The notes beneath the pieces were generated by a model that was not told the DNA's origin, did not search any database, and was given only the letters and a program-made list of their open reading frames with translations. From the IMG/VR virus record IMGVR_UViG_3300006117_000466, positions 1 through 46,978 of that record: 46,978 nt of DNA. One strand, given 5' to 3'. This DNA comes from a virus. The position numbers and the translations under genes were made by a program. This document shows, in pieces, positions 1,819 through 27,190 of this stretch. Within the stretch, counting starts at the first letter, position 1. Every line of letters starts with the position of its first letter.

Positions 1819-3123
1819 TCATTCAAATAATGAAGAATCTAGTTTTACTTGCTTGGCAATTTTATTTGCCAATTTAGTTGCACGTATTTTTGCTTTTACT
1901 TCTTCTGTACGTGGTTTACCATACATAGGATTTAGCTCGCCTGGAAATCCTCTAAAGCTACCATTCTTGCGTTTGGTTTCGAGGATTTTGGCAATAACTT
2001 CGGGGCTTTTTTTCCTACCCTTAGCAGGATTCACATACCCTTCTTCTTTCATTCTTGCCATTCTAGTTTCGACGCTTTTTTTAATACTTTCAGGATCTCG
2101 ACGTTTGCCCTTCAAGGGGTTAACATATACAACTCCGTTTTCTTTTGCTTTAGCAATAGTTTGTTTTCTTTTTTCATGCGAGGCTTGAATTTCTTCCGGT
2201 GATAACTTGCGTTTTCTTTTCTTTGGTTTCGATCCGATAATCCATCCATTAGATAGAAAATCATTTAATTCCTCTTCTTTAACAAATTTTTGTTCATTAT
2301 CTTTATGGATACAAGTCCTTGTAGAACCAGACAAGCATTTAATTGACCAGCCTCCAAATTTTTCTGTGGTTTTATTTTTTAGAAAATCCCAGCACCACCC
2401 TACGCTTATGAAATGCTCGTTACAAAATTTATCTAATCCACCAGTTATTGTATATTCTTTATTATTAGCATCTGTCAGCACATAAGTTTTAGCTCGACCA
2501 TTTTTCTCTCCTGCTGTAGCTTCACATCTTTTAGCATAGGATTCTTGAGAAAAATAGCCTGTACCATTAGCTCTATCCCTAGCTAACCTTTCCTTTTGTG
2601 CCTTACTGTTTTTAATTCTAACATCTAATCGTTTAGATGGGTTTTTATCGCCTTTTACTAATTCACTTTTTCTCTTTTTAGTCAAAGGATCATTGTGGTA
2701 TATGGCAAATTTTGCTTTAGTTTCTTCGGAATGTGTTTTTCCATAAAAGGGGTTACCTTCTCCCGAGTTATGTTTTAAGTAGTCTTCTCTTATTTTAGAA
2801 TAAATTCTAGAATTAACTTTATAATTTCTTGAACCTATTGTTTTTATCTGTGCCATAAATCGCACAGCACTAAGCATCTTCTTGTGGTACTGATCTGCAA
2901 AGTTCATTTTCCACAGTAGTAAATGTGCCACATAATGTTCTCTAGCTGATAATGTCACTAGATTAGACGGGGAATTATTCCCCCCAAAAGATCTTGGTAT
3001 TATATGATGACGTTCGTTATACTCTGGCGGAATTTCTCTGCTCTGAGCTTTTTCTACAAGATTACAATACCAACGACTATATTTGTTTTCTATAAATTTT
3101 ACTTTTGACGGCCAATTAATCAT
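1819..3123 (-). CDS. HNH homing-type endonuclease with NUMOD3 repeats
   Basis: 434 residues. An HNH nuclease core lies near the N-terminus (ERHHIIP at 37-43, NLV at 54-56, REHYVAH at 61-67). DNA-binding NUMOD3-like segments follow, with NPFYGK near 124-129, NPMYGK near 398-403 and several KGRKKSPE-like repeats between. This is the layout of free-standing phage homing endonucleases. The start at 3123 is the first ATG; the frame extends five codons to a TTG. No clear ribosome site or promoter is seen, and it lies directly behind the terminator at 3141-3165, as expected for a mobile insertion. It is in intact frame. Confidence 0.85.
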   Translation of the reverse strand: MINWPSKVKFIENKYSRWYCNLVEKAQSREIPPEYNERHHIIPRSFGGNNSPSNLVTLSAREHYVAHLLLWKMNFADQYHKKMLSAVRFMAQIKTIGSRNYKVNSRIYSKIREDYLKHNSGEGNPFYGKTHSEETKAKFAIYHNDPLTKKRKSELVKGDKNPSKRLDVRIKNSKAQKERLARDRANGTGYFSQESYAKRCEATAGEKNGRAKTYVLTDANNKEYTITGGLDKFCNEHFISVGWCWDFLKNKTTEKFGGWSIKCLSGSTRTCIHKDNEQKFVKEEELNDFLSNGWIIGSKPKKRKRKLSPEEIQASHEKRKQTIAKAKENGVVYVNPLKGKRRDPESIKKSVETRMARMKEEGYVNPAKGRKKSPEVIAKILETKRKNGSFRGFPGELNPMYGKPRTEEVKAKIRATKLANKIAKQVKLDSSLFE

Positions 3124-3140
3124 AATGTAGTATAGCAAAT

Positions 3141-5482: not shown

Positions 5483-5692
5483 TTAAGATACGCCCATTAA
5501 AAACATGAGCGCATCATATTCGTTTCTAAATTCAAAGTCCATCCATTCTTCGTTTGAATGGCATTCAAACCTTTCCCCAGGAAGACCAAAATTTTCAACT
5601 GCATATACACAGGCCTTATCCCAAGTGCGATTGTCATCCTTGCTTTCCCAAGAAAGTCGTACTGTGTGTTTGTTGTATGATTTGACTTTCAT
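5483..5692 (-). CDS. Small array protein A (MFLMGVS end)
   Basis: 69 residues, unknown function. It is the last member of a set of small related genes sharing a C-terminal pattern F-x3-[KE]-[DE]-x2-[ML]-F-[LT]-x-R-W-S; here the end is degenerate (MGVS). The ATG at 5692 shares one base with the upstream stop (TAATG), and the ribosome site GGTGGAG is formed by the codons of the upstream protein's R-W-S end. The frame is open to a GTG at 5701. Confidence 0.65.
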   Translation of the reverse strand: MKVKSYNKHTVRLSWESKDDNRTWDKACVYAVENFGLPGERFECHSNEEWMDFEFRNEYDALMFLMGVS

Positions 5693-5964
5693 TAACTCCA
5701 CCGCAGGGTAAACAGAAATGCATCTTTGCTATCTTCAAATATAAAGTGTGCTCCATTTCTATGGAACTGTCCTTTAATGTTTTCATCTATCCAATGCGTT
5801 ATATCTACAGCATGGTTATTGTCTGTATAACGATCGATATTGACCAAAGTCCATCCCTTTTCTTTACAGTCGACTACTCGGATGGACCACAGAACTTCTT
5901 GGTCGATTTCTTTCGATATTTGATTTGCCAAAAATACAACAACATCATCTTCCAATAATTTCAT
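5692..5964 (-). CDS. Small array protein B (TLRWS end)
   Basis: 90 residues, unknown function, member of the RWS array. The C-terminus reads FEDSKDAFLFTLRWS. The ATG at 5964 overlaps the preceding TGA by four bases (ATGA), and AGGTGG, encoding Arg-Trp of the preceding protein, serves as its ribosome site. The middle holds an aromatic-rich segment (HWIDENIKG) that looks weakly alignable with the other members, suggesting a small alpha/beta fold. Confidence 0.65.
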   Translation of the reverse strand: MKLLEDDVVVFLANQISKEIDQEVLWSIRVVDCKEKGWTLVNIDRYTDNNHAVDITHWIDENIKGQFHRNGAHFIFEDSKDAFLFTLRWS

Positions 5965-6293
5965 GACCACCTCATCAGGAACATAGTAATTTCTTTTTTG
6001 CTTTTAAACCGCCACATGTCGAACGATATACGTGTACCGCAATTACACTCTTTACTCCATTCTTGTATAGGATCCATATCTTCTTCGCGCAGTCCCCAAA
6101 CTGATACATTTCCTGTTGGATCTACAAAAGCCTGTAGCTTATTGCCAGGAAGCTCTCTCCAAGATAATTTTATAGGAGGTCTCATATTGGCGTACAAATT
6201 TTTAAGTATATCAGCAACATGTGATTTTCCCATTTGTCTTCCTGTAATTTGAACCAATCCACGGCCTTTGAATTTATATCCATCATTTTTCAT
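5961..6293 (-). CDS. Small array protein C (FLMRWS end)
   Basis: 110 residues, member of the RWS array, ending FKSKKEITMFLMRWS. The first 20 residues (KFKGRGLVQITGR) resemble the substrate-binding stretch of GH19 chitinase/lysozyme-type enzymes (the common GRGxxQxTGR motif). The rest does not look like a hydrolase, so this may be a fused remnant. The ATG overlaps the upstream stop by four bases. Function unknown. Confidence 0.65.
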   Translation of the reverse strand: MKNDGYKFKGRGLVQITGRQMGKSHVADILKNLYANMRPPIKLSWRELPGNKLQAFVDPTGNVSVWGLREEDMDPIQEWSKECNCGTRISFDMWRFKSKKEITMFLMRWS

Positions 6294-6493
6294 AACTGTA
6301 TTCTAGTAGAGCTAAACCTTAACACAAACATCATGTGATCGCGTTTATCTGCAAAATAGATATTAGGATGTTTAAATCCCCATCGGCCGTCGGACCCATC
6401 TCCACAATTTGAATTTAACCAATCGAATACTTCTTTAGGTGGTTGTACATTATTGCATTCAACTATGTGATATTCGTGTTCAAGATTGAGCAT
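6290..6493 (-). CDS. Small array protein D (FVLRFS variant end)
   Basis: 67 residues from the ATG at 6493, which overlaps the nucleotidase 3' end by 14 nt; the frame is open to 6595, but that start lies deep in the nucleotidase. It carries the array motif as FADKRDHMMFVLRFS plus a six-residue tail. The variant end fits the loss of the ribosome-site role: the downstream start (ATGA overlap) has no GG-rich R-W codons before it. Function unknown. Confidence 0.6.
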   Translation of the reverse strand: MLNLEHEYHIVECNNVQPPKEVFDWLNSNCGDGSDGRWGFKHPNIYFADKRDHMMFVLRFSSTRIQL

Positions 6494-6980
6494 GGAAAAT
6501 ATTATCCAACCATTCTTTACAAGGTTCCCAAGTTTTATAAATGAATGCTTGACCCCCGGCGTTTTCCCATTGTTCGCAGTTACTGGTACGATCATCGATT
6601 AAGATATCGCCAGGCTTACAATGCATCCATTTGTCATGGCTATAAGGGCCAAGGAATACGGGAATGCCTTCAAAGTGTTCATGTGCCCACCAAACTTTAT
6701 CCTGTGGAGCCCATTGCATATCGTTGTTACGCGGTAATGCTGATAAGAAGGCTAAGCCGTTTGCGTATCCTTTATCTACTGCTTCACGACAATATTGCAC
6801 TAGATCATGTGCATTTTCTTTTAAGGGCAAATGACGATAGAATCTACTGTTCATTTTGATCTTATCCCAATCTTCTTGTGGAATACGTTCACCTTCTTTG
6901 TCCCAGCGCATCTGCAAAAACGATTGTGCGGCAGAATGCCAATCAGCAACCACATCATCCATATCTAAATATATAATCAT
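6480..6980 (-). CDS. 5'(3')-deoxyribonucleotidase-like HAD phosphatase
   Basis: 166 residues. The N-terminal YLDMDDVVADW carries the HAD nucleophile and acid (D6, D8), and the C-terminal ILIDDRTSNCEQWENAGG is the acidic motif IV of the NT5C type. These enzymes dephosphorylate deoxynucleoside monophosphates, fitting a phage with its own nrdAB and thyX. The ATG at 6980 is read from GGTGGAGTTAATG, shared with the end of array protein E; the GTG nine bases earlier is less likely. Its insertion inside the small-gene array is notable. Confidence 0.75.
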   Translation of the reverse strand: MIIYLDMDDVVADWHSAAQSFLQMRWDKEGERIPQEDWDKIKMNSRFYRHLPLKENAHDLVQYCREAVDKGYANGLAFLSALPRNNDMQWAPQDKVWWAHEHFEGIPVFLGPYSHDKWMHCKPGDILIDDRTSNCEQWENAGGQAFIYKTWEPCKEWLDNIFHAQS

Positions 6981-7354
6981 TAACTCCACCTTAAAAGAAA
7001 CATTGTTACATCTTTTTCATCTCTAAACCAAAATTTAGCATTGTTCGCATACCACCGTGCGCCAGTATCTTCCCAAATGCTTATAGTAGGTCCGAGTGTA
7101 TTAACTGTCCATTCCAACATACCAGGCCACTTGTCTTCTGCGTTAATTGGAGCAATAGTAATATACTTTTTACCTAATACAGTACCTTCACTTGTTTCTA
7201 ATCTATACTCATTGATATTACCCACAGTTTGAATCTCAACCCATATTGTATTATCGTATATTTCTAAACGATTAAGCACTGAGTTAAAACGTACCTCTCC
7301 TTGTACAGGTTTCTTAGGAGAAAAGTCAGTTCCAACAAACGTCATATTAGACAT
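6980..7354 (-). CDS. Small array protein E (FLLRWS end)
   Basis: About 124 residues, the largest array member, ending FRDEKDVTMFLLRWS. The start is ambiguous: ATGs at 7357, 7354 or 7345 all lie at the stop of the preceding gene, and none has a good ribosome site. I give 7354. The central part (VRFNSVLNRLEIYDNTIWVEI) looks like the short beta segment often found in phage structural proteins. The R-W-S-stop codons form the ribosome site of the nucleotidase gene. Confidence 0.65.
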   Translation of the reverse strand: MSNMTFVGTDFSPKKPVQGEVRFNSVLNRLEIYDNTIWVEIQTVGNINEYRLETSEGTVLGKKYITIAPINAEDKWPGMLEWTVNTLGPTISIWEDTGARWYANNAKFWFRDEKDVTMFLLRWS

Positions 7355-7643
7355 CATCGATGCCAGGTCTAAATGTTCTGGTATCACCCCATCTACCGTG
7401 AGGTGGACCAATACCTTCTGCATACCTTAAAGTGGTAAAAGGCCACTCATAAGGGAAGCTACAAAGATGTCGTAAAACAACATCCTCGTAGACCCAAACT
7501 ACTTTTGGAAAACTTTTTGACATCCTACTAATGTTTGTTTTTAATAGAACGCCATCCTTACTCAAAGGAACCCAATCTTTAGCACCACTGGGTTCTTTTT
7601 CCCCTGTGTATATTTCTCTTATGTACAGCGCATGTCTAGACAC
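7347..7643 (-). CDS. Hypothetical small protein
   Basis: 98 residues, not recognised, rich in aromatic residues and arginine. It starts with GTG at 7643, two bases after the phosphoesterase stop; a GAGGT ribosome site is formed by the last codons of that gene, so translation is coupled. It does not carry the RWS end of its downstream neighbours. Confidence 0.6.
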   Translation of the reverse strand: MSRHALYIREIYTGEKEPSGAKDWVPLSKDGVLLKTNISRMSKSFPKVVWVYEDVVLRHLCSFPYEWPFTTLRYAEGIGPPHGRWGDTRTFRPGIDDV

Positions 7644-8942: not shown

Positions 8943-8971
8943 ATTATATGTTCAAATGGTAAATGTGTCAA
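8943..8971 (-). promoter_or_regulatory. Consensus promoter of the 8917-3185 operon
   Basis: Minus strand TTGACA (8971-8966), 17 nt, TATAAT (8948-8943): perfect consensus. It overlaps the presumed 5' region of the divergent hemA gene, for which a weak plus-strand TTCAAA-16-TATAAA (8951-8978) can be drawn, so the two may exclude each other. Confidence 0.75.
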
Positions 8972-8994
8972 GTATAAAATGCTTAAATACTGGT

Positions 8995-10215
8995 ATGATT
9001 AAACCAAAAACACAAGACGCGATCGCCAAAAGTCTTGAAAAATTAAAAACAGAAGGCAACTACAGAGTATTTACGGACATACTGCGCCAGCGTGGAGATT
9101 TTCCACGTGCAATTTGGTATGGTCGTTATAATATCAAACAAATTACAAACTGGTGCTCAAATGACTATTTGGGCATGGGTCAGCATAAAGTAGTACTAGA
9201 TGCTATGCACACAGTTTTAGATACTGCGGGTGCAGGATCCGGAGGAACACGTAATATTTCGGGTACTACCCATTATCACGTTGCTTTAGAAAACGAACTA
9301 GCCAAATTACATGATAAAACAAGTGCTCTTACATTTACTAGCGGCTACGTTGCTAACCAAAGTACGCTTTCTGTGTTAGGTCTAGTATTGCCAAACGTGC
9401 ATTATATCAGCGACAAACACAATCACAATTCAATGATTGTAGGTATTAAATCAAGTAAAGTTCCACGTACAGTTTGGGAACACAACGATTTGAAACACTT
9501 AAAACAAATATTGGAAAGCATGGAAGATGGCGCACAGCCTATCATCGCACTGGAAGGTGTTTACTCGATGGATGGAGATAAGGGCCGTGTTGCAGATGTT
9601 TGTGAACTAGCTAGAAAATATGGTGCTATGGTTTATGTCGACGAAGTCCACGCGGTTGGCCTTTACGGCAACCGCGGAGCTGGGGTCGCAGAAGAACAGC
9701 ATTGTGTTGATGGTGTAGATATTATACAAGGTACACTTGCTAAGGCATTTGGTGTACAAGGTGGATATATTGCGGCGGGGCGTGATCTAATAGATATGGT
9801 TCGCTCTTATGCACAGGGTTTAATCTTTTCAACATCAATGGCTCCTGTACTATGTGCCGGTGCTCTTGCTAGTGTTAAGTACGTTCAAGATCATCCAGCA
9901 CTGCGTACTAGGATTATGGATGTAGCAGAAATGACTAGACAGCATTTGAAAGATGCAGGATTAGAAGTGAACCCATTATCAGAAGGCGGACACATTGTTC
10001 CTGTTATGGTACGTGACGCTAAGAAGTGTAAAGCTATTAGTGATTGGTTATTGGATGAAAAAGGAATTTACGTACAGCCCATAAATTACCCCACTGTTCC
10101 GTGGGGTACTGAGCGACTACGCTTTACACCTACTCCTAATCATACAGAAGCAGATATCTACTATCTAGCCGAAAGTCTTAAAGAAGCCTTTAACGTCTTT
10201 TCACAGACTTCTTAG
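8995..10215 (+). CDS. hemA: 5-aminolevulinate synthase (ALAS)
   Basis: 406 residues from the ATG at 8995 (an in-frame ATG at 8956 is possible; neither has a ribosome site). ALAS condenses glycine and succinyl-CoA to 5-aminolevulinate, the first step of haem synthesis by the C4 route. Family marks are EGNYRVF near the N-terminus, WCSNDYLGM, GAGSGGTRNISGT, VDEVHAVGLYG (PLP aspartate near 216), GTLAKAFG (PLP lysine near 250) and INYPTVPWG. The last two motif sets separate ALAS from 2-amino-3-ketobutyrate ligase and BioF. It is full length, and the only rightward gene for several kilobases. Its origin is probably alphaproteobacterial. Confidence 0.93.
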   Translation: MIKPKTQDAIAKSLEKLKTEGNYRVFTDILRQRGDFPRAIWYGRYNIKQITNWCSNDYLGMGQHKVVLDAMHTVLDTAGAGSGGTRNISGTTHYHVALENELAKLHDKTSALTFTSGYVANQSTLSVLGLVLPNVHYISDKHNHNSMIVGIKSSKVPRTVWEHNDLKHLKQILESMEDGAQPIIALEGVYSMDGDKGRVADVCELARKYGAMVYVDEVHAVGLYGNRGAGVAEEQHCVDGVDIIQGTLAKAFGVQGGYIAAGRDLIDMVRSYAQGLIFSTSMAPVLCAGALASVKYVQDHPALRTRIMDVAEMTRQHLKDAGLEVNPLSEGGHIVPVMVRDAKKCKAISDWLLDEKGIYVQPINYPTVPWGTERLRFTPTPNHTEADIYYLAESLKEAFNVFSQTS

Positions 10216-25754: not shown

Positions 25755-26525
25755 TTACCAGCCGCGCCATCTAGAGGTCAAATAGGGTAGTTCAACTTGA
25801 GCAAGTTTTTCGTTAGGAGCACAGATCATGTTTTGTCCATCATCTGTGATAAACCAATGGCTATAGTCGGGTGCGATTTCATTAACTAGAGCTTTTATAG
25901 TTTCGTGTATATAAGAGCCTTGGCAGTTATTGTATTCTACCCATAACCACGGACGATGCGCTCTAATAGTTTGGGCACCGCCGTGTATAGCTTGTGGTTC
26001 GTACCCCTCTACGTCCAACTTAATAAAATCAACTTTAGGTAGGTTTAAACTATCTATAGTAACCATTTGGGTTAGATTAGGGTTGGTATAATCATATTCC
26101 GGAACTTGTGAATCTACAGCAACAGATCCATAATCATCTACTTCTTTATAGTTTACATCTGGCATGCGGACAACACCCGTAACGTCACCTAATGCTTGAT
26201 TATAGATATGTACGTTGTATAGGTCGTTGATAGCGACTGTTCCAGCAAGTGCATAAAACAGACGTTTTTGAGCCTCAAATGAAATTATTTTTGCTGATTT
26301 TGACTCTAATCTGCGTGATAATGGCACAGTTACAAAGCCAATGTTTGCACCTCCATCAATGATTACAGCGTCATCTGGAAGACTATCTATGATTAGATAC
26401 ATACGCTCTAACTCTTCTTCGATGTGAGTCTTGCCTGTAGTTTCTAATGCTTCGCCTTGGAACTTGCAGTATTGATTTACTACAAACTGTCCATAGTCAC
26501 TGTTGTATATTTTAAAGTCGCTCAT
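25755..26525 (-). CDS. FkbM-type methyltransferase
   Basis: 256 residues. SAM-binding VIIDGGANIGFVTVPLS (motif I, near 53-69), FEAQKRLFYAL, then TIDSLNLPKVDFIKLDVEGYEPQAIHGG, the FkbM family hallmark. Targets are often sugars. Neighbouring a second methyltransferase and a tailspike, it may modify surface glycans or virion components; DNA modification is less likely. The ATG overlaps the next gene's end by four bases. Confidence 0.85.
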   Translation of the reverse strand: MSDFKIYNSDYGQFVVNQYCKFQGEALETTGKTHIEEELERMYLIIDSLPDDAVIIDGGANIGFVTVPLSRRLESKSAKIISFEAQKRLFYALAGTVAINDLYNVHIYNQALGDVTGVVRMPDVNYKEVDDYGSVAVDSQVPEYDYTNPNLTQMVTIDSLNLPKVDFIKLDVEGYEPQAIHGGAQTIRAHRPWLWVEYNNCQGSYIHETIKALVNEIAPDYSHWFITDDGQNMICAPNEKLAQVELPYLTSRWRGW

Positions 26526-27190
26526 ATTTCTAAATACTCTCCATCTGGTCCTGGATGGCCACCATCTGGTTCTACACCATAATTAGCGTGTACAAATATT
26601 TTTTCAACTGAGTTATCTTCGATTCCTAGTTTATGGAATTCTTCTTTGACAATATAAAATGCAGTAGCACCCCATTGATCAACTCCGTAAAGTTCGTATC
26701 CTTTTTCGTTAGCCATCTTAGTGATGCTAGCAAGGCTTGATCCCATATAGCGAGTGCCGTTCCATACATAGTCTGACTTGTAAGGAGGTACTGCTAGTGT
26801 CGGAGGAACTTTGATTCCGTTGTATTCAATAAACACTACCCTAGGTTTATAATCAAGGGCTTTCCATAACCAGTAGTCCATACCGTCAACGTCGATACTC
26901 AAGAAATCAAACTCTTTGGGAACTTCTCCTTGTGCAAATAACTGATTGATATTTTCTGCTGTAATGAAGCCTTTGACGACTTTAACAGGATACTCCATAC
27001 AATTAAAAACTATTTGATGATACTGTTTTTCATCTGCTTCTAAGTATGTGGCTTTCCAACCTTGTTTTCTTACTAGATTTACTGTATGATCGCTCACTGC
27101 GTCATACACACCAAACTCAACACAATATTTGTTGGTGGTGCCTATCTTTGCAAAAACGTCATCGATATTTGGAATTAAACTATAGCTCAT
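26522..27190 (-). CDS. SAM-dependent methyltransferase, FkbM-like
   Basis: 222 residues. YCVEFGVYDAVSDHT (motif I region), YLEADEKQY, and FDFLSIDVDGMDYWLWKAL correspond to the FkbM-like fold, though motif I lacks the usual DxGxNxG. It ends GHPGPDGEYLEI. Coupled to both neighbours; probably acts with the adjoining FkbM enzyme. Confidence 0.7.
   Translation of the reverse strand: MSYSLIPNIDDVFAKIGTTNKYCVEFGVYDAVSDHTVNLVRKQGWKATYLEADEKQYHQIVFNCMEYPVKVVKGFITAENINQLFAQGEVPKEFDFLSIDVDGMDYWLWKALDYKPRVVFIEYNGIKVPPTLAVPPYKSDYVWNGTRYMGSSLASITKMANEKGYELYGVDQWGATAFYIVKEEFHKLGIEDNSVEKIFVHANYGVEPDGGHPGPDGEYLEI

Follow-up and report, generated by a model that had tools for sequence, protein, structure and literature searches.

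A superfamily of phage mini-proteins with dual-coded, chainable C-terminal ends

In bacterial and phage operons with ATGA-overlap coupling, the start codon of a gene overlaps the stop codon of the gene before it, and the Shine–Dalgarno (SD) site lies inside the upstream coding sequence. The gene arrays described here share both features, but differ from ordinary ATGA operons in that the overlapped codons belong to the fixed C-terminal peptide of one superfamily, are SD-tuned, and support chains of up to 13 genes. A second point of comparison is provided by the early host-takeover clusters of T4-like and jumbo phages, which are made up of small, lineage-specific, clustered genes of unknown function. 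The genes considered here (LRW genes, after their conserved Leu-Arg-Trp end) are likewise small, lineage-specific and clustered; to our knowledge, no common fold or dual-coded end has been found in host-takeover clusters. A third is Gol, the 29-residue stretch of the T4 capsid protein gp23 that binds EF-Tu and triggers Lit exclusion; it lies within the first quarter of gp23, of which it is the most conserved region (PMC3014915). We favor, with a probability of roughly 0.78, the reading that the LRW genes form a new β-α-β-β-α superfamily with dual-coded, chainable ends, for which we infer translational coupling and a role as early effectors.

The DNA analyzed here (hereafter the window) is a record of an uncultured phage, IMGVR_UViG_3300006117_000466, of 46,978 bases, with nrdA/nrdB, thyX, a dexA-like exonuclease and tail genes among its gene content. 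The array lies on its minus strand at positions 5483–7357, flanked by a metallophosphoesterase-like ORF (assigned by eye) and a 2OG-Fe(II) oxygenase, and comprises five small proteins with a common ending and one deoxyribonucleotidase; a 69-kb sister record is 98.2% identical over 8.8 kb, array included. Elsewhere in the window, we note a class I/II aminotransferase resembling 5-aminolevulinate synthase (8956–10215, plus strand, PF00155 4e-61), which is encoded opposite to most genes and is a possible auxiliary metabolic gene, as well as two features assigned by eye on the minus strand: adjacent AhpD-like and peroxiredoxin (AhpC-like) genes (623–1776), which are unusual phage cargo, and an HNH homing endonuclease-like ORF with repeated NUMOD-type motifs (1819–3138).

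Following the array in its direction of transcription (all features on the minus strand), a 98-aa gene (7347–7643) without the LRW motif, for which Pfam/PHROG profile searches found no family, overlaps with its 3′ end the start of member F (6980–7357). The ORF sequence of F has the LRW-family domain at its C-terminus and ends in ...F-RDE-K-D-VT-M-F-LL-R-W-S, i.e., FLLRWS. At the junction that follows (6978–6992), (A)AGG TGG AGT TAATG reads as Arg-Trp-Ser-stop and at the same time as an SD-like site and the start of a 5′(3′)-deoxyribonucleotidase gene (NT5C; 6480–6980; PF06941 3e-10, phrog_2643 1e-24). Member D (6290–6493) starts inside the 3′ end of the nucleotidase gene and has a degenerate, extended tail, LRFSSTRIQL, with no SD-like end. 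Member C (5961–6293) ends in MF-LM-R-W-S, and its end DNA, GAGGTGGTCATGA, contains the ATG that starts B; in this junction (5961–5974), GAGGTGG TC ATGA provides Arg-Trp-Ser-stop with a 4-nt ATGA overlap. Member B (5692–5964) ends in LF-TL-R-W-S, and in its junction with A (5690–5704), CGG TGG AGT TAATG, the ATG begins A. Member A (5483–5692), the last copy of the array, has the degenerate end LMGVS, no SD-like end, and no overlapping downstream gene. The sequence GGTGGAGTTAATG has exactly two occurrences in the window, both on the minus strand with first bases at 6990 and 5702, and none on the plus strand. The likely starts are the overlapping ATGs, rather than the upstream GTGs given by the ORF lister.

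The original prediction that Arg-Trp-Ser codons serve as the ribosome site of the next gene thus holds for F, C and B (AGGTGG or CGGTGG), and its coordinates, sequences and doubled GGTGGAGTTAATG were correct on re-check. Its opening statement that five proteins share the motif is loose: as its own further text indicates, the full RWS motif is present in these three and not in D and A, and neither of the degenerate ends, VLRFSSTRIQL in D and LMGVS in A, is SD-like.

We searched a viral collection using a degenerate DNA pattern for DAxMFx[LF]RW, with the final residue and the stop left unspecified. Nearly every match listed is the end of an ORF of 50–150 aa with its stop one codon past W, and the commonest end among the matches listed is TTGAGGTGG-NNA-TGA, i.e., an ATGA overlap. 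This seed set is biased to DAxMFxLRW, and family frequencies refer to the matches listed and to the 2.3 Mb of environmental phage DNA surveyed. As a guard against circularity, a masked profile was trained solely on the 17 residues that end in MF, LRW being hidden, and run over all frames of the 2.3 Mb. It recovered at least 430 copies with a tail of 20 aa or less, in which the unseen tail reads L-[R/K/T]-[W/F/Y]-x: among 430 members, the tail is of identical five-residue length in 294, with L in 96%, W in 82% and W/F/Y in 93%. Moreover, 423 of 440 matches lie no more than 15 aa from a stop, and none lie beyond 60 aa. Because the LRW-masked profile matches almost only C-termini, and because a 30-residue profile found no member in 13 reference phages (T4, phiKZ, G, P-SSM2, phiM12, Cr30 and others), a chance origin of the shared ending is excluded.

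With the tail included, the profile finds at least about 880 copies in the 2.3 Mb of environmental phage DNA, with 1 to 50 copies per genome (30-residue profile) and a median length of 77 aa (10th–90th percentile, 64–105 aa). The sole isolate matched by tblastn of members against isolates is Sinorhizobium phage Phosso (PV764938; L123–L128), which carries 27–35 copies depending on the cut-off (31 with the 30-residue profile), among them ATGA-chained arrays near the genome start. A strict motif pattern gave one match in 257 Gb of bacterial genomes, which a regex check of ORFs showed not to be an LRW protein. Sequence searches of Pfam, PHROGs and the PDB returned no family covering the C-terminal domain, 108 diverse members gave only scattered N-terminal or sub-threshold matches to Pfam/PHROGs, and the literature searched, mostly outside subscription journals, contained no description of the family or motif. 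The superfamily, with up to 50 paralogues in one genome, is newly defined here: it is large, previously unclassified, and absent from both Pfam and PHROGs. We note that a second conserved small family recurs in the arrays (WDWDWGMA...NRLTIKIR...KLMWS; L022:2986–3363, L041:1306–1659, L095:3041–3394, L111:1234–1608 and L140:12623–12976), apparently a diverged relative with an MWS end.

A common fold had been among the checks originally proposed, and the AlphaFold models of two members from different phages, window B (pLDDT 89.5) and a member from L005 (pLDDT 92.3, pTM 0.81), share the same predicted β-α-β-β-α core. The last helix of the models spans D-A-x-M-F-x-L-R-W to the end of the protein, with L-R-W as its last turn, and the primary reason for the conservation of this C-terminal end is probably that the fold is closed by it. 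We also considered a C-terminal signal peptide or degron, and set this reading aside since the helix end accounts for the conservation without it. Foldseek gave no match of the predicted domain in the PDB at E ≤ 0.001, and the best VIA structural match (Z 6.0, EF-G domain III) falls short of the level at which relatives can be told from common arrangements. In a library of predicted viral structures, over 30 uncharacterized proteins of uncultured Caudovirales have a matching fold, and thus the fold recurs, though unnamed.

An overlapping start was found in 611 of 880 copies (ATGA in 430, TAATG in 81), and in 421 of these 611 overlaps the partner gene is itself a family member, with head-to-tail chains reaching 13 genes. 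The other partners, some of which are themselves diverged family members, include genes for radical-SAM, epimerase, MazG-like, FkbM methyltransferase, gamma-glutamyl cyclotransferase and DNA polymerase proteins, in addition to the nucleotidase of the window. The nucleotidase gene, which its Pfam match shows to be real, is aptly described as captured, as had been suggested, given the range of enzyme genes that follow members elsewhere. Two adjacent FkbM-methyltransferase-like ORFs are also seen by eye in the window (25755–27190, minus strand), and a similar gene follows a family member at L137:8271–9017.

Upstream of the shared domain, the N-termini of some members are shown by sequence similarity to carry fragments of core phage proteins. 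Searches of the N-terminal parts against PHROGs gave major-head-protein matches in five members (best 4e-8) and one endolysin match, and comparing them directly with the long ORFs encoded by these phages (E-values per query, 720 queries) gave two capsid segments (best E 1e-9 and 7e-9) and a helicase P-loop (2e-4). In the window, the N-terminus of F contains a tail-fibre-like repeat, GEVRFNSVLNRLEIYD (phrog_2803 7e-4; E 6e-5 to a 409-aa tail-fibre-like Phosso ORF), and that of C a GH19-endolysin-like segment, DGYKFKGRGLVQITGR, of the form GRG-x2-Q-[LI]-TGR (phrog_181 1e-4; E 3e-4 against long ORFs, with 75% identity over 16 aa to an endolysin-like stretch; E 0.001 to an endolysin-like ORF in the sister record). 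C shares this stretch with GH19 endolysins, but is 110 aa overall and holds the segment only, without the complete catalytic domain. The "Walker A" look of C may derive from the endolysin stretch GRGFIQLTGK, and not from a terminase. The N-terminal helix of B resembles a major-capsid (gp23) segment with EIDQEIL (E 0.002; gp23-segment profile 9e-5); this is the weakest of the three fragment matches in the window, where E-values are modest for fragments of 20–40 aa.

Across the family, two capsid-segment profiles matched 4 and 12 of 880 members, compared to 2 and 1 of 3702 control small ORFs, with one of the two control matches being a missed family member; the NrdA loop SNLCxEI is present in four members. 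The first capsid segment, found in five mini-proteins, matches T4 gp23 at residues about 91–131, with E down to 3e-9. By position and conservation, this segment would correspond to the Gol region, the exact residue numbers of which in T4 gp23 are here our assumption. In comparison to T4 gp23, the mini-proteins hold a 20–40 aa piece, joined to an unrelated domain, of a capsid protein that measures 400–520 aa, with at most one capsid segment in each member and never a full-length HK97-type capsid protein. In one genome, a fragment and the genome's own capsid gene are 57% identical over 69 nt; as this identity is the same in DNA and protein, the fragment is not a recent capsid copy, and an origin of the fragments by recent copying of DNA is unsupported in the one pair tested. 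We further note an N-terminus that is a collage of enzyme motifs (L132:8656–8943, with pieces resembling the exonuclease motif VDLET, a P-loop, GGIPAGTINVISVGRQTGKS, and the NrdA loop SNLCKEI), and a conserved subfamily beginning PWQ..L..(x)n..ITGRNxGKSxFSxQA, in which a terminase/helicase P-loop-like sequence is fused to the LRW domain in the arrays of L071, L077, L034, L083, L010, L076 and L045.

Our first choice for the role of these proteins is that they may be fast-diversifying early effectors, taking part in host takeover or in anti-defence, and not structural proteins, an analogy which rests on the genes being small, paralogous, diverging and clustered. The main rival is recombination-driven gene birth, in which pieces of resident genes are joined to a chainable 3′ module and most products have little function. 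The strongly diverged bodies with their similar ends, the N-terminal capsid, endolysin, tail fibre, helicase and NrdA fragments, and the many copies in each genome would all fit such a process, and we regard it as unlikely but a serious contender, since many phages have the fragment families in the same position, the one fragment/capsid pair is no fresh copy, and fold and aromatic ends are retained, such that many products appear to be selected. Rather doubtful is the idea that mimics are carried on the LRW domain, with the N-termini displaying short stretches of the most conserved proteins of the phage itself. If true, these would include the Gol-like capsid segment, the capsid helix, the helicase/terminase P-loop, the NrdA active-site loop SNLCxEI, the endolysin and the tail fibre; the mimics could serve as decoys or adaptors, swamping host sensors of those proteins or disrupting their counterparts in competing phages, and chainable genes that bring their own ribosome sites would yield them one after another.

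The two constraints on the LRW codons were separated by comparing 394 nonredundant copies, including 228 coupled copies and 99 uncoupled copies, the latter "free" class being called mainly with ATG starts. An aromatic residue (W/F/Y) occupies the W position in 95% of coupled vs 89% of uncoupled copies (p = 0.06), whereas AGG makes up 124/162 Arg codons (77%) in coupled copies vs 11/45 (24%) in uncoupled ones (p = 4e-10), and 8.9% in gene bodies. W is preferred over F/Y in coupled copies (p = 2e-6, W among W/F/Y), Arg likewise goes with coupling, and G-ending Leu codons, by which AGGTG is lengthened to GAGGTG, increase from 39% in uncoupled to 74% in coupled copies. The same pattern is obtained once copies matching the original DNA pattern are removed, and the AGG effect holds within GC strata (Mantel–Haenszel odds ratio 4.3). 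Using an assumed universal anti-SD, which may differ from the 16S tail of the host, SD pairing in coupled copies is −8.5 kcal mol–1, vs −4.1 kcal mol–1 for synonymous recodings (4.4 better, p = 1e-22), while uncoupled copies do not differ from their recodings (p = 0.59). RW is the first of 400 dipeptides for SD strength at that position, and the exact AGG-TGG form occurs in 121/228 coupled copies; as nearly half of the coupled copies lack it, the SD is an aid and not a requirement. Fewer overlaps and lower AGG use are seen in lineages rich in KLTW ends.

The aromatic end is retained without overlap, and the protein is therefore constrained; AGG, the G-ending Leu codon and W over F/Y are concentrated in overlapping copies, and the RNA is therefore constrained too. 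This answers the question originally posed of whether the RWS end is kept or lost in copies not followed by a gene, and the comparative evidence establishes a dual-coded, chainable end: the start overlaps the upstream stop, and the SD is stronger than coding alone requires. The proposed lock between protein end and translation signal is supported in a statistical rather than an absolute sense, with Lys (AAA/AAG) in 27/228 overlapping copies and RF, TW and AW ends within chains. One could argue that LRW is simply a helix end or recognition tag, with AGG reflecting codon bias and the overlap ordinary phage packing, and both the persistence of the aromatic end without overlap and the position of L-R-W in the last helical turn of the model agree with this; it is nevertheless improbable, as AGG reaches 77% at this site in coupled copies vs 9% within the respective gene bodies, the gain in SD energy is limited to coupled copies, and the AGG effect persists within GC strata.

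We consider a role of the small proteins in the virion or its assembly (capsid decoration or assembly regulation) quite improbable: although a subfamily has gp23-like segments, fragments of unrelated proteins are also present, there are up to 50 paralogues per genome, and the 13 reference phages without members include T4-like ones. Finally, it is very improbable that LRW is merely what an SD encodes in the ATGA-overlap frame, in otherwise possibly unrelated proteins, since, although RW is the best dipeptide for an SD there and overlapping copies are enriched in AGG and W, a profile with LRW masked still detects the F-x4-DAxMF motif, from which the end can be predicted, uncoupled copies keep the aromatic residue, Lys codons that are poor as SD substitute for Arg, and the two predicted folds agree. 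Unrelated folds, with RWS only at overlapping starts, are thus not what we find.

Returning to the superfamily with dual-coded ends, the domain closes with a predicted C-terminal helix, [D/H]-A-x-[M/L]-F-x-L-[R/K/T]-W-x, with the stop about one codon past W. In chained, mostly AT-richer lineages, the next ATG overlaps this stop (ATGA or TAATG), such that the SD site falls exactly on the codons of the last helical turn, where Leu-Arg-Trp is preferentially written TTG-AGG-TGG to give GAGGTG. Each gene thereby brings a built-in ribosome site for whichever gene comes next; translation would be coupled along the chain, and new copies or foreign genes could join it with no need for a further promoter or ribosome site. 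That such coupling actually happens is the likely meaning of this arrangement of overlaps and SD-tuned codons.

These arrays offer a clear, countable case in which selection acts on the same DNA for its protein and for its ribosome site alike, with the uncoupled copies as an internal control, and Phosso, as the one cultured phage in which the family can be studied, provides a ready experimental model. They suggest a modular route of gene capture in phages, in which a gene brings the start signal of its neighbor, and the fragments of core proteins make a link to capsid-sensing bacterial immunity testable.
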